From NCBI GenBank assembly GCA_012837895.1, contig DUQH01000114.1:62001-126000 (forward strand): DNA of 64,000 nucleotides, written 5' to 3'. The DNA comes from Candidatus Fermentithermobacillaceae bacterium (GTDB lineage Bacteria > Bacillota > Sulfobacillia > Fermentithermobacillales > Fermentithermobacillaceae). The notes below the pieces were generated by a model. It had not been told where the DNA came from. It searched no databases and saw nothing but the letters and a program-made list of their open reading frames with translations. Below, one piece after another: positions 135 to 49,282 of the stretch. Numbering within the stretch: position 1 is the stretch's first letter; every line of letters begins with the position of its first letter. Made by a program: the position numbers and the translations under genes.

Positions 135-579
135 ATGTATGAAAAAGCTACAGCACCTTCAAGAAGCTGCTCAATTTTCGTGCAGGTTTGAACGGGAACT
201 GCGTAAGTTTCAGACGGCTGTATGAAAAAACTGCGCCTTCGCAAAGGACCTGTCTGATTTTGCTGCAGGTTTCCGAAAAGCTGCAGCTTTTTTGAGCAGG
301 TTAGATGAGGACCTGTATCGATATTGTACGGCTGTATGAAAAAACTGCGCCTTCGCGAAGGACTTGTCTGATCTTGCTGCAGGTTTCCCGAAAAGCTGCA
401 GCTTTTTTGAGCAGGTTAGATGAGGACCTGTATCGATATTGTACGGCTGTATGAAAAAACTGCCCGTTCACGGGAAACCTGCCTGGTTTTCCCACAGCTT
501 TTCGAAAACCTGGATCCTTTTTGTACAGGTTGGAAAGGGAACCGTGCAAATATCAAACAGCCGCTAAATAAAGGCGCAG
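135..579. repeat. Array A1: 16 phased CTG-N13-CAG palindromic boxes
   Basis: Boxes of 19 bp with outer arms CTG and CAG (or close variants) are centred at 144, 176, 208, 227, 259, 290, 322, 341, 373, 405, 437, 456, 488, 519, 551 and 570; a weaker one may sit at 602. Steps run 32-32-19-32-31-32-19 and so on, so four boxes make a 114-115 bp unit. Units 217-330 and 331-445 are almost identical; the flanking units have diverged. Box centres are A/T rich and the idealised box is CTGTAT-n7-ATACAG. No convincing ORF crosses the array. It lies just beyond the 3' end of the minus-strand gene at 627. Bases 1-134 hold nothing else recognisable. A protein-binding array is inferred; no function is known. 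Confidence 0.85.
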
Positions 580-24980: not shown

Positions 24981-25151
24981 TACCCATCTCCGATAATGGA
25001 TTTCCGCCGCTAACAAGACGGGGCCGCCGATCCATATATATTCTGACGCCTGGTGGAAGGATTCCGGGTACAGGGGTATTTGGAAGATGCTCATGAAGGT
25101 ATTCGCGAGGGGTAGATTTGGGTCAGGTATTGATGCACCTCCCGGCCTCAC

Positions 25152-25429
25152 CTGTCCGATAAAGACACAGCTTTTTGGAAACCTGTATGAAAACTAGGCA
25201 GGTCTTTCGGAGGACCGTACCTTTTTGATACAGCTGTCTAGAATCTATACAGCCTCCATCAGAACCTGTACAAGAAAGATACACCTTTTCCAAAACCTGT
25301 ATGAGAATCAGGCAGCATCCCTGCAGAGATGTAGTTTTTTCATACACCCGTTCAAAATTTACACGGCTTCGGGAAAATCTGTAACAAATTCATACAGCTT
25401 TTCTAAGAACCTGTTCGAAAATCAGCCAG
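25152..25429. repeat. Array A2: ten phased CTG-N13-CAG boxes, same family as A1
   Basis: Boxes of 19 bp are centred at 25161, 25192, 25224, 25243, 25275, 25306, 25338, 25357, 25388 and 25420, giving steps 31-32-19-32-31-32-19-31-32 and a 113-114 bp unit. Arms are CTG/CAG or close variants (CCG, CAC), with A/T-rich centres, as in A1. The reverse complement of about 25291-25366 aligns with part of A1, so the two arrays are in opposite orientation. It fills the gap between the sigma-factor 3' end and the VanW start. Confidence 0.82.
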
Positions 25430-25446
25430 ACGGCTGAGACCTTTTA

Positions 25447-45048: not shown

Positions 45049-47316
45049 ATGCTATCTTCGATTAGTGGTTCCCATGGTACCCGCAGGTTGAAAAAACGGT
45101 TTACCGCAGTAATCTTGGCTTTGGTCTTGGCAAGCATGGTCGTGAGTTTGCCAGGTGCTGCCCTTGCACACAACTCATCACATGAAGATCCTGCTTTCCT
45201 TGGCTACCTAAGCGGCGGGTATGGCAAGAAGCAATTCAGGTTCGTAGTGGCCACAGACAGCCATTTTGGATCATGGCAAGGCAACAAGAACTCACTCCTG
45301 GCGCTTGCCAACATCGCCCAACGCCACCCTGATGCAGCTTTTATGATTCACATGGGTGACATAACCGAAACAGGCGCAGATGAAGAATACGAATTGCTTA
45401 AGCAGGACATAGCCGGTTTGCCTTTCCCTGTAATGGCGACCATGGGAAATCATGAGTCTAGATGGCAAGACCCCCAGGGCTCGAAGTTCAGGAACCATTT
45501 CGGCCCGTCTACCTACTCTTTTGATTACGGCATGTGGCACTTTGTAGTCCTGGACACTTCGTACCCTGAGCAAACCTACGGCACGCTTGACCCGTCGGTG
45601 CTTGCCTGGCTGGAGCAAGACCTGGCATCCCAGCCTGCAAGCAAGCCAGTAGCTTTGTTCTCCCATCATCCTTTACTCTACCAGGAAAGAAACTTCCAGG
45701 ATTCCGACGACGCCCTGCTGGAGATCATCGGCAAGTATCCGGTTCACGCCATCTTCTCAGGCCACGGGCACTCGTTCATCACATGGAAAGTGCAAGGGTG
45801 TTCCTGTTTCATGAGCGGAGCCCTCATGGACAATGCTTACATAGCGGTGGAAGCAGATGGCTTGGCGCTTAGAGTATATTCTGTAACGCCAAGCAGCCCA
45901 AACGAAGAAGAAGCAGGGGTGCCCGGGCCAGATGCACCGGTTTACAGAGAATCGCTGCTTGGGGCAGTCTCAGCCCCGGCGCAGAGAGGCATGGATGAAC
46001 TTGTAAGCAGGTTGTCCGTTAGAGTGGAAGATGAAACCCTGAAAGCCAGCTTCTACCTATCGGAACCTGCATCTTTGTGGTTTCAAATTGACGGCGGCTA
46101 CTACAACGAACTGGGAATGAAAAAACGGGGAACCCACGAGTTTTCAGTTGATATTTCAGCCCATGCCCCTGGAACCCATACATTGAGGATCAAAGCGGTC
46201 ACTGGGGACGGGCAATATGTCACAACCAAGGAGTTTGAAAAAGACACGGATGAACTGATCCTGTGGAAACAAGATTTGGGGAGTTCCCTTGTGGCCCGCA
46301 TGCTTAAGGCCTCACCTTCCAACGTGATAGTTGGCACCAGGAATGGCATGGTATATTCCATTGATGCCGGGAAAGGTGACATCTTGTGGGAGTACGACGC
46401 CGGCGCACCATGGAGCGGCGGCGCAATTGACGGCCAAAAGCTTTATTTTGGAACCGCAGCTGGGGAGGTTCACTGCCTGGACAAGAACACAGGCCGCATG
46501 ACATGGAAGACCACCCTGGATCCTGCGGGGTTTGTGGAGCCTCCAGTGATATGTGACACAGGCAAAGGCCGGTGTTTGATCATAGGTTCGCCTTCAGGCA
46601 AGGTATATGCCTTGAGCACTGTATCCGGAGTTAACCGGTGGGATTACCAGGCATCAGGGGCTGTAACCAACACTCCTTCAACAGGGCTTGGCATGGTGTT
46701 CTTCGGGGACTGGGCGCAAAAACTGTACTCTCTAGATGTGACAACCGGGCAGGAGATTTGGGTAAAACACCTTGGCAGACAGATGTACTACTCTCCCGCA
46801 GGCAATTCCCTTTTCTACGGAAATACCCTGTTTGCGGTAACCCCTGCCGACACCCACAGCGGAGGTAGTTTCTTGTATGCTCTTAACCCACATAGCGGCG
46901 AGGAAAACTGGAAAGGTGTAAATTGGAGGTCTTTCCTAGAACCCTCCCTCCCATTGTACTCGCAAAACACAAGCGTAAGAAGGCCGTTCATTCTGGTTCC
47001 TGATTCAGGCGGGCGGATCACAGCATACTACAGGGCTTACGGAGAGATTCCCTGGCACCTGCAAGGTTACTCCACCTTATTCGCAGGCCTACCCAACCTT
47101 GATGGCATCTATGTGACCGGTGGCGCAAGAGGGGTCCTTGCAATCCACGCAGGTGATTCACAGCTCGACTTCAAGGTCCGGGATACGTTTCTGTTCGTAG
47201 ATCCCCTGGTACTTAAGTCCCAGGGTAACCAGGCGAAGACCGCAAACGAGTACTTCCTAGTCCAAGGGGATAACCGCGGCACCCTGTGGGGGATCAAGAT
47301 ACCCGTTTCACCATAG
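45049..47316 (+). CDS. Secreted metallophosphoesterase with PQQ-type beta-propeller
   Basis: 755 residues. A signal peptide covers residues 1-40 (FTAVILALVLASMVVSLPGAALA). A calcineurin-like phosphoesterase occupies about 60-290 with TDSHFG, HMGDITETG, MGNHESRW, SHHPLLY and SGHGHSF motifs, so the dinuclear site is complete. An Ig-like spacer follows, and from ~400 a PQQ-like propeller repeats (GMVYSIDAGKGDILWEYD, GEVHCLDKNTGRMTWK, GKVYALSTVSG). Both modules are secreted; the substrate is not clear. It ends 81 bp before array A3. Confidence 0.87.
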   Translation: MLSSISGSHGTRRLKKRFTAVILALVLASMVVSLPGAALAHNSSHEDPAFLGYLSGGYGKKQFRFVVATDSHFGSWQGNKNSLLALANIAQRHPDAAFMIHMGDITETGADEEYELLKQDIAGLPFPVMATMGNHESRWQDPQGSKFRNHFGPSTYSFDYGMWHFVVLDTSYPEQTYGTLDPSVLAWLEQDLASQPASKPVALFSHHPLLYQERNFQDSDDALLEIIGKYPVHAIFSGHGHSFITWKVQGCSCFMSGALMDNAYIAVEADGLALRVYSVTPSSPNEEEAGVPGPDAPVYRESLLGAVSAPAQRGMDELVSRLSVRVEDETLKASFYLSEPASLWFQIDGGYYNELGMKKRGTHEFSVDISAHAPGTHTLRIKAVTGDGQYVTTKEFEKDTDELILWKQDLGSSLVARMLKASPSNVIVGTRNGMVYSIDAGKGDILWEYDAGAPWSGGAIDGQKLYFGTAAGEVHCLDKNTGRMTWKTTLDPAGFVEPPVICDTGKGRCLIIGSPSGKVYALSTVSGVNRWDYQASGAVTNTPSTGLGMVFFGDWAQKLYSLDVTTGQEIWVKHLGRQMYYSPAGNSLFYGNTLFAVTPADTHSGGSFLYALNPHSGEENWKGVNWRSFLEPSLPLYSQNTSVRRPFILVPDSGGRITAYYRAYGEIPWHLQGYSTLFAGLPNLDGIYVTGGARGVLAIHAGDSQLDFKVRDTFLFVDPLVLKSQGNQAKTANEYFLVQGDNRGTLWGIKIPVSP

Positions 47317-47397
47317 TTTGAAACATCCAATGAAACATCCGGGCCGGTCCCGGGTGTTTCATTTTCTCACAAGAAGCCGTGGAATGCCGAAGTATAC

Positions 47398-47867
47398 TGG
47401 TTAAGTTCAGACCACGTCTTGCCTCGAGGTGGCCAATCCCAGACCAGTTCGAGTTAGTCGAGGGCCGGATTGGTCAATCTGCAACCAGGTTTAGGGCTAA
47501 AGTGGTCAATTCTAGGCCGCTTCTTGGGCCGAACTGAACAATTCCAAACCACTTCGCGAACCATCGAGGGCTGTATTGGCCAATTTGGAACCAGGTCTAG
47601 CCTGCAAGTGGTCAATTTCAAACCAGATTAGGCTCGTAACTGGATGATTTGAAACCAGCCCAAGCTTGCAGGAACGGAAACTGGTTAATTCCGAACCAGG
47701 TTCCGCCGTGAAGTGGTGAATTCTTGACCTGCGTACACTCCGAACTGGTCAAATCGGAACCAGTATGAGCCTCCGTGTAGGCGGAATGGCGAGTTTTTCA
47801 CCAGATGGACGAGATAGGTGGCCAATTCCTAACCAGGTTTCGCTAGGCAGTGGTCAATTTGAGACCA
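47398..47867. repeat. Array A3: 14 phased TGGT-N9-ACCA palindromic boxes
   Basis: 17-bp boxes with arms TGGT/ACCA or close variants are centred at 47406, 47438, 47479, 47511, 47543, 47585, 47617, 47649, 47690, 47722, 47754, 47795, 47827 and 47859. The steps are 32, 41, then 32-32-42, 32-32-41, 32-32-41, 32-32, a 105-106 bp unit of three boxes. A decayed box near 47932 fits the phase. The box consensus is TGGTCAATT-n4-ACCA, similar to the multi-repeat ends of some IS21-type elements, but no transposase is near. Intergenic, 787 bp in total, between the phosphoesterase and lactate dehydrogenase genes. Confidence 0.9.
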
Positions 47868-48049
47868 GCCCCGCTTTACAATCGGCAGATTTCTTGCCAT
47901 CGCCGGCCGACAGCAAACCGATCTGGCCCATTCCGAGGTTTGAGTGAGAACTCCCATGAAGCACAAGCGCCTGTTTGGGGAAGGTTAACTGTAGAGGAAC
48001 TCAATGCAAGCGGCTTAGTCGTAACAAGACTTAGGTAATACCATCTAAG

Positions 48050-48103: not shown

Positions 48104-49282
48104 GTGACAAGTGTTTCATTTCAAAAGCCTTCTAAGGTGTCTATCATAGGCACAGGACGGGTTGGCAGCACCTATGCTTACACCCTCTTACTGAGGGGAA
48201 CAGCTGATGAGATTTGTCTAATCAATGAAAACAAGGAAAAAGCCCTTGGCGAATCCATGGATCTCAATCATGCCATGTCATTGGTAGAACGCACAACCAT
48301 TTGGGCAGGCAGTATGCAAGATGTGGTGGATTCAGACCTTGTGGTGATCTCCGCCGGCACAGCACAAAAACCAGGGGAAACAAGGATGGACCTCATCAAA
48401 AAGAATGCGGCAATAGTAGGCGACATAGCAGAAAAAGTGGGTAGACTTGCCCCAAACGCCATACTGCTCGTGGTAACCAATCCGGTAGACGTCATGTCTT
48501 ACGTAGTTTGGATACGCTCAGGGCTAGCGCCGGAACGGGTGATAGGATCCGGAACCATGCTGGACACTGCCAGGCTCCGTTACGTGATCGGGGATGAACT
48601 GGGTATCAACCCCCAAAGCGTCCAGGCATCCATCATCGGTGAACACGGCGATTCTGAAATCGCAGCATGGTCCCGGGCCACGATTACCGGAACCTCTTTG
48701 CGGAACTGGGCTTTATCCGAGTCTCATTTGCAGAGCATGTTCGAAGAAGTCCGGGATGCAGCTTACAATATCATCAACCTAAAGGGAGCAACTTTCTATG
48801 CAATAGCAGTTGCAATGGTCAAGATAACCGAAGCAATACTAAGGGATCTCCGGAGCGTCTACTCAGTTTCCTGTTATCTTGACGGTGAATACGGCGTTAC
48901 CGGCGTATACCTTGGAACACCGGCAGTAGTTGGCAGAGAAGGCATCTTGCGCGTAATTGAGCTCCCCCTTTCCCGGGAAGAGCTTGAAGCTTTCAAGAAG
49001 TCTGCCGGCACTGTAAAGCAAGCTATTCAGAGCCTCAACCTCAGACCGGCTTCACTTTATGGAAGAATGCTTAGGAAGGTTTCAGGATTTGGCTTTTCTA
49101 AGGAGCTGGATATTGAACCCCAACACCTACCGCCGCATCTCTCAACCGGCCAACCGGGCGATGTGGCTACATCAATAGAAACCGGGGTGCAAGACGTAGA
49201 AAACATCCAAAGCAAATCTCTGTACCTGAAGAAACCGAAACCCATCAACGCACGCAGGCCACGCAGGACGAAACATATGTAA
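48104..49282 (+). CDS. ldh: L-lactate dehydrogenase with C-terminal extension
   Basis: 392 residues, about 75 longer than usual LDH. The NAD-binding start is VSIIGTGRVGSTYA; the specificity loop SAGTAQKPGETRMDL has Gln as in LDH (MDH has Arg); catalytic His is in IGEHGDSE and the conserved TNPVDVM is present. The extension after about 315 is basic and low in order (IEPQHLPPHLS..., ending PINARRPRRTKHM). It reduces pyruvate to lactate. GTG start with GGAGGG upstream. A malate dehydrogenase role is less likely because of the Gln. Confidence 0.87.
   Translation: MTSVSFQKPSKVSIIGTGRVGSTYAYTLLLRGTADEICLINENKEKALGESMDLNHAMSLVERTTIWAGSMQDVVDSDLVVISAGTAQKPGETRMDLIKKNAAIVGDIAEKVGRLAPNAILLVVTNPVDVMSYVVWIRSGLAPERVIGSGTMLDTARLRYVIGDELGINPQSVQASIIGEHGDSEIAAWSRATITGTSLRNWALSESHLQSMFEEVRDAAYNIINLKGATFYAIAVAMVKITEAILRDLRSVYSVSCYLDGEYGVTGVYLGTPAVVGREGILRVIELPLSREELEAFKKSAGTVKQAIQSLNLRPASLYGRMLRKVSGFGFSKELDIEPQHLPPHLSTGQPGDVATSIETGVQDVENIQSKSLYLKKPKPINARRPRRTKHM

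Follow-up and report, generated by a model that had tools for sequence, protein, structure and literature searches.

A dispersed family of helically phased dyad arrays in Fermentithermobacillaceae and its candidate winged-helix nuclease partner

The intergenic region upstream of a predicted L-lactate dehydrogenase (LDH) gene in a Candidatus Fermentithermobacillaceae genome carries a long series of short palindromic boxes, and raises the question of what recognises these boxes and what keeps them in so regular an order. Here we report the analysis of this array in a 64-kb window (the whole stretch of DNA under analysis, G000:C64:62001-126000, from the 2.05-Mb draft genome G000) and of its relatives in other genomes. 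With a probability of roughly two in three, we read the window array as one of the dispersed copies that form the DNA half of a two-part array-plus-nuclease system, whose other half would be a winged-helix (wHTH) protein with a Vsr/EDxHD-like nuclease domain and whose arrays would be spread in trans. The array lies between a probable terminator and the leader of the LDH gene, and the features of the locus are as follows.

45049..47316, + strand: flanking gene, predicted 755-aa phosphoesterase/beta-propeller-like protein, identified by eye
47329..47363, + strand: inverted repeat followed by a T-rich tail, probably the terminator for the gene upstream; left bound of the array
47398..47899, + strand: whole array, 14 clear 17-bp dyad boxes and a weak 15th; consensus TGGTCAATTYYRRACCA; steps 32-32-41/42
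47398..47414, + strand: box 1, TGGTTAAGTTCAGACCA
47430..47446, + strand: box 2, TGGCCAATCCCAGACCA
47471..47487, + strand: box 3, TGGTCAATCTGCAACCA
47503..47519, + strand: box 4, TGGTCAATTCTAGGCCG
47535..47551, + strand: box 5, TGAACAATTCCAAACCA
47577..47593, + strand: box 6, TGGCCAATTTGGAACCA
47609..47625, + strand: box 7, TGGTCAATTTCAAACCA
47641..47657, + strand: box 8, TGGATGATTTGAAACCA
47682..47698, + strand: box 9, TGGTTAATTCCGAACCA
47714..47730, + strand: box 10, TGGTGAATTCTTGACCT
47746..47762, + strand: box 11, TGGTCAAATCGGAACCA
47787..47803, + strand: box 12, TGGCGAGTTTTTCACCA
47819..47835, + strand: box 13, TGGCCAATTCCTAACCA
47851..47867, + strand: box 14, TGGTCAATTTGAGACCA
47883..47899, + strand: weak box 15, CGGCAGATTTCTTGCCA, absent from the box list of the original prediction
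47924..47940, + strand: decayed box, TGGCCCATTCCGAGGTT, the fifteenth of the original prediction (centre 47932), read directly from sequence
48104..49282, + strand: flanking gene, predicted LDH, identified by eye

The steps between boxes 1 and 14 run 32, 41, 32, 32, 42, 32, 32, 41, 32, 32, 41, 32 and 32 bp, and the repeat unit is 105-106 bp, so that both the fourteen-box rhythm (47398-47867) and the unit length of the original prediction were confirmed. With the window's boxes and their orthologues left out of the position matrix, the longest box chain in the window comprised 14 boxes, and the maximum in 200 dinucleotide shuffles of the whole window was 1. Exact TGGT-N9-ACCA occurs six times in the 64 kb, always inside the array, with 1.15 matches expected. 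The same prediction placed a decayed fifteenth box at 47932, in phase with the others. A remnant does exist there, but the weak box at a step of 32 bp after box 14 had been missed, and the remnant sits 41 bp further, so that the terminal steps are 32 + 41 where the rhythm predicts 41 + 32. Between the remnant and the LDH gene, a 37-nt element at 47954-47990, CCATGAAGCAYAARCGYCTSTTTGGGGAAGGTTAACT, aligns in G000, G002 and G004, and partly in G001.

As the original prediction had suggested, we scanned the genome and its relatives for the motif at 32/41-bp steps. The window type occurs as seven arrays in G000, and 25 more were fetched from three of the four sister species (G001, G002 and G004), with none in the fourth, G003. 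The search of genomes from other genera returned none except one isolated match, and a scan of the whole collection gave matches only in Candidatus Fermentithermobacillaceae records and in one Bacillota MAG. Together the 32 arrays hold 423 boxes, separated by 256 steps of 32 bp, 84 of 41 bp and 29 of 42 bp, the remainder being mostly one or two bases off or near other multiples of the helical turn. The steps keep helical phase, with a mean vector length of 0.92 at 10.5 bp per turn, which bears out the earlier claim that the boxes occupy one face of the helix. Outside arrays, boxes in G000 show no excess over a reversed-pattern control. Every array is a single intergenic block of up to about 20 boxes, all in the same orientation. 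The flanking genes vary from array to array and, by inspection, are convergent at some arrays and divergent or codirectional at others. Several arrays are located at contig ends, and the arrays may therefore partly account for the contig breaks in these draft genomes.

The distribution of the arrays bears on the proposal that the boxes are decayed multi-repeat ends of an IS21-type transposon, which was based on a superficial likeness of TGGTCAATTT-type repeats and was to be accepted if spacings varied freely and copies were always tied to IS21. The ends of IS21 elements carry two repeats each, with istAB between them (PMC10122671), and the window array resembles them in having several repeated sites, for which binding is here predicted. 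However, most steps are 32, 41 or 42 bp, the arrays occur without IS21, and single blocks in one orientation differ from repeats at two inverted element ends. Transposase searches gave weak fragments in G000 and one strong and one weak match in the array-free G003; no IS21 transposase was found in G001, G002 or G004, three of the four array-bearing species. The boxes are absent from the IS21 loci examined in G000 and G003, and no istA/istB linkage to the repeats was seen at the loci searched. We therefore regard a transposon-end origin as practically negligible.

In G000, roughly 200 bp separate the window array from the LDH gene downstream of it, a position that would fit an operator array controlling neighbouring genes, here LDH. 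The gene at 45049..47316 is syntenic in G002, G004, G006 and G008 and is absent from this position in G001, and the LDH gene is syntenic whether or not the array is present. At this locus the array makes up most of the intergenic sequence that can be aligned between G000 and G002, and in G004 the gene order is unchanged across a gap of about 310 bp that contains no array. Convergent genes flank some of the arrays (L048, L053, L057, L066 and L067); this, together with the changing neighbours and the lack of a box excess outside arrays, makes control of adjacent genes very improbable.

The boxes themselves appear to be double-stranded sites. Paired arm positions vary independently among the 423 boxes, with Watson-Crick and mismatch counts equal to expectation, a pattern that favours recognition of double-stranded DNA by a dimeric protein; RNA hairpins were rejected for the same lack of arm covariation, and no Rfam family was found at the array. 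A replication-direction signal was likewise rejected, the orientation of arrays relative to the majority gene direction being mixed. In ten pairs of orthologous arrays, recognised by their flanking genes, the arms are 89-100% identical and the spacers 45-89%.

This contrast speaks against a neutral satellite, in which the rhythm would be kept solely by descent through tandem duplication of the 105-bp unit. Whole units are indeed gained or lost, the arrays L009 and L060 differing in length by exactly one 105-bp unit, and L011 contains near-identical units. However, the arms are retained while the spacers diverge, the unequal steps of a distant family (32, 41, 52 and 84 bp; see below) still fall near multiples of 10.5 bp, and arrays are eroded where the cognate gene was not found; the neutral reading is very improbable. 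Selection on spacing and tandem growth had been offered as alternatives by the original prediction, and both are upheld, the latter as growth by whole units. Its third element, a protein-bound array, is supported by the box structure, and binding is what we would predict. What that account lacked is that the arrays are dispersed, are kept at orthologous sites and are paired with a gene family for wHTH-nuclease proteins.

The candidate partner is encoded at G000:C52:3863-4663, where a window-type array begins 38 bp after the gene for a 267-aa protein. Orthologues of this gene adjoin arrays in G001 and G002. The G001 copy (L053:3979-4781) is split by a frameshift, either as a pseudogene or through an assembly error, and the G001 arrays look intact despite it. 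The N-terminus of the protein matches winged-helix families (MarR/HTH_36) and MarR structures. The C-terminus matches no Pfam or NCBIfam family above threshold; in all 26 aligned homologues it has matches among PHROG families annotated as homing endonuclease or HNH. Eight residues are invariant in these homologues (E149, D151, E163, G166, Q168, H169, D189 and K192), including the catalytic-type E, D, E, Q, H, D and K. A modelled viral relative of the nuclease domain gave Foldseek probabilities of 0.99 with Vsr (1cw0) and 0.75 with I-Bth0305I (3r3p), at E-values above 0.05, and a truncated wHTH-nuclease model of low confidence (pLDDT 67) gave only weak matches to MarR-type structures. The comparison of the viral domain supports, short of proof, a Vsr/EDxHD-like fold for the C-terminal domain. 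The protein would share a nuclease-like C-terminal domain with Vsr and with EDxHD homing endonucleases such as I-Bth0305I (PMC3943268), and differs from them in its wHTH N-terminus and in being encoded by free-standing bacterial chromosomal genes beside arrays. Most phage relatives found align over the nuclease part only, and a plasmid or phage vehicle was rejected, as matches in plasmid and phage records leave more than half of the protein uncovered and fall mostly on the nuclease part.

Homologues of the wHTH-nuclease occur in 13 of the 14 genomes of the Fermentithermobacillaceae family, and 18 of the 31 fetched homologue loci have a strongly periodic array within about 1.5 kb of the gene, with periods of about 30-33, 53, 59-64 or 105 bp and a distinct box for each. 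About 40% of the loci show no detectable array, in some cases where the contig ends. Comparing rounded counts (20/33 loci versus 6/58 control segments, with thresholds slightly unequal between the two sets), an approximate Fisher test gave p of about 1e-6; of the six positive control segments, two or more are themselves arrays of the wHTH-nuclease system. A phylum-wide sample contained strong homologues in many other families, and several of these loci again have arrays.

The subfamilies of the protein are matched by box types. L092, the closest paralogue of the L011 protein (64% identical), has a cis array with one extra central base and 33-bp steps. L093, a second paralogue in the window's own genome, has a 53-bp cis array of ATGGTGCA-N5-TGCACCAT, and this box has 163 matches genome-wide there versus 5 in the control. 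L120, which is 53% identical to L093, also has a 53-bp array with the same dyad layout and different inner bases. L095 does not fit this pattern: it is 81% identical to L093, yet the cis array nearest to it on the upstream side is different. In a distant family, the homologues at loci L128 and L130 are accompanied by TGGTCC-N5-GGACCA boxes at steps of 32, 41, 52 and 84 bp, in a 32-32-41/52 rhythm; the TGGT...ACCA arms and the 32-32-41 rhythm are those of the window type. The two proteins share 94% identity with one another and 38% with the L011 protein, and their genomes contain about 270-300 such boxes each, while three congeners have no such box populations, their best sampled proteins being at most 65% identical. 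From the linkage, the matched types and the loss described below, we infer that the G000:C52 protein binds the window-type array.

Array copies have been both dispersed and lost. In G435, non-orthologous arrays are about 80-92% identical in the best register over about 260-990 bp, with the similarity often running slightly past the boxes, which points to recent copies. At most orthologous sites checked between G435 and G181 the array is present in both genomes. One G181 array is absent from the matching G435 site, whose flanks are 90-95% identical; the 1.26 kb missing there is longer than the array and has no clean target duplication, so that insertion and deletion are indistinguishable at this site. 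A possible rearrangement breakpoint lies at L249:3707 and L269:3724, where G435 and G181 cease to be homologous close to the array on one side.

The search for close relatives of the L011 protein found none in G004, whose genome is only 80% complete. Arrays there have 4-11 boxes, versus 11-21 in nearly all arrays of the other species, and arm identity to orthologues is 0.60-0.68, versus 0.88-0.98 in control pairs. The missing gene could be an assembly gap in a genome of this completeness, and eroded arrays align less certainly; for these reasons, the association between array erosion and absence of the cognate gene is suggestive only.

The preferred two-part reading would work as follows. Dimers of the wHTH protein would bind the 17-bp dyads, all on the same face of the helix, and would coat the array cooperatively. 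The nuclease domain may help arrays to be copied, kept uniform and carried into intergenic sites, the simplest copying route being a cut followed by repair from an array-bearing template, and arrays would gain and lose whole 105-bp units. A driving role of the nuclease in copying is a guess based on the domains of the protein and on the dispersal of the arrays. That the nuclease is active, how copies are made and whether the host gains from them are matters of inference.

The main rival, which could coexist with the two-part system, is a host function, in which a domesticated wHTH protein would coat the arrays for chromosome organisation and bridging or for partition, its nuclease domain being structural or active only conditionally. 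The model is SopB on the F-plasmid sopC, where, as in other centromere arrays, tandem dyads at near-integral helical turns are expected to form a cooperative protein complex. Helical phasing across many turns, the near-confinement of boxes to arrays and the use of intergenic sites whatever the direction of neighbouring genes are all consistent with such a role, and the conservation of arms at orthologous loci could reflect host function instead. Yet array loci are gained and lost between sister species, as at the empty LDH site of G004, copies in G435 were recently dispersed, and the nuclease-type residues are invariant. The arrays also differ from sopC/SopB in their number per chromosome, in the architecture of the protein and in being dispersed as whole copies. 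We consider a host function rather unlikely as the full explanation. The original prediction had named a regulatory or partition array as its main alternative, which is possible but leaves the gene-array pairing and the dispersal unexplained.

The closest functional parallel to the two-part system is probably that of REPINs, which form single-strand hairpins, and RAYTs, the REP-associated tyrosine transposases (PMC8049555). As there, a dedicated enzyme gene adjoins its own repeats (L011 with the window type, L093 with the 53-bp type), intergenic DNA holds a large scattered population of related noncoding repeats, and these repeats are kept by vertical inheritance and are less numerous in genomes without the enzyme. 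Two defining features set the systems apart, and we do not file the arrays under REPIN/RAYT: instead of a Y1/HuH tyrosine transposase, the candidate proteins match only MarR/HTH_36 wHTH and Vsr-like nuclease families, and instead of maintained hairpin pairing, the 423 boxes form long double-stranded arrays of helically phased dyads. The likeness would thus be one of operation between unrelated systems.

Somewhat less firmly than for the window array itself, we favour the view that these loci represent an undescribed, widespread class of Bacillota elements, in which wHTH-Vsr-like nucleases each spread and maintain their own phased arrays, and box and period coevolve with the protein. The open-access literature searched, with incomplete coverage, contains no description of such a pairing. 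If correct, this would add a DNA-protein pairing unlike the systems compared above, in which a nuclease-linked winged-helix protein seeds its own tailored array genome-wide. It would also provide natural matched wHTH/operator sets for recognition studies, a test case for the persistence of noncoding repeat populations in bacteria, and a supply of phased arrays that imaging or DNA-scaffold work could use directly.

Further arrays were observed in the window and at related loci. Tandem 115-bp units at window positions 150-540, 97% alike over 2.2 copies, contain CTGTATGAAAA-type boxes of a different family and are probably one of the other arrays of the original prediction. A diverged array with 114-bp periodicity and CTGTATGAAAA/ATACAG-type boxes lies at 25140-25440, and is perhaps cognate to another paralogue of the wHTH-nuclease. 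At L009:1126-1222, three boxes of the 53-bp family directly follow a window-type array, so that two array types abut. Finally, a near-perfect 10-bp tandem repeat, TGGAACCCCC, lies at L083:2416-2495 in G008, between the nuclease gene and its 33-bp array.
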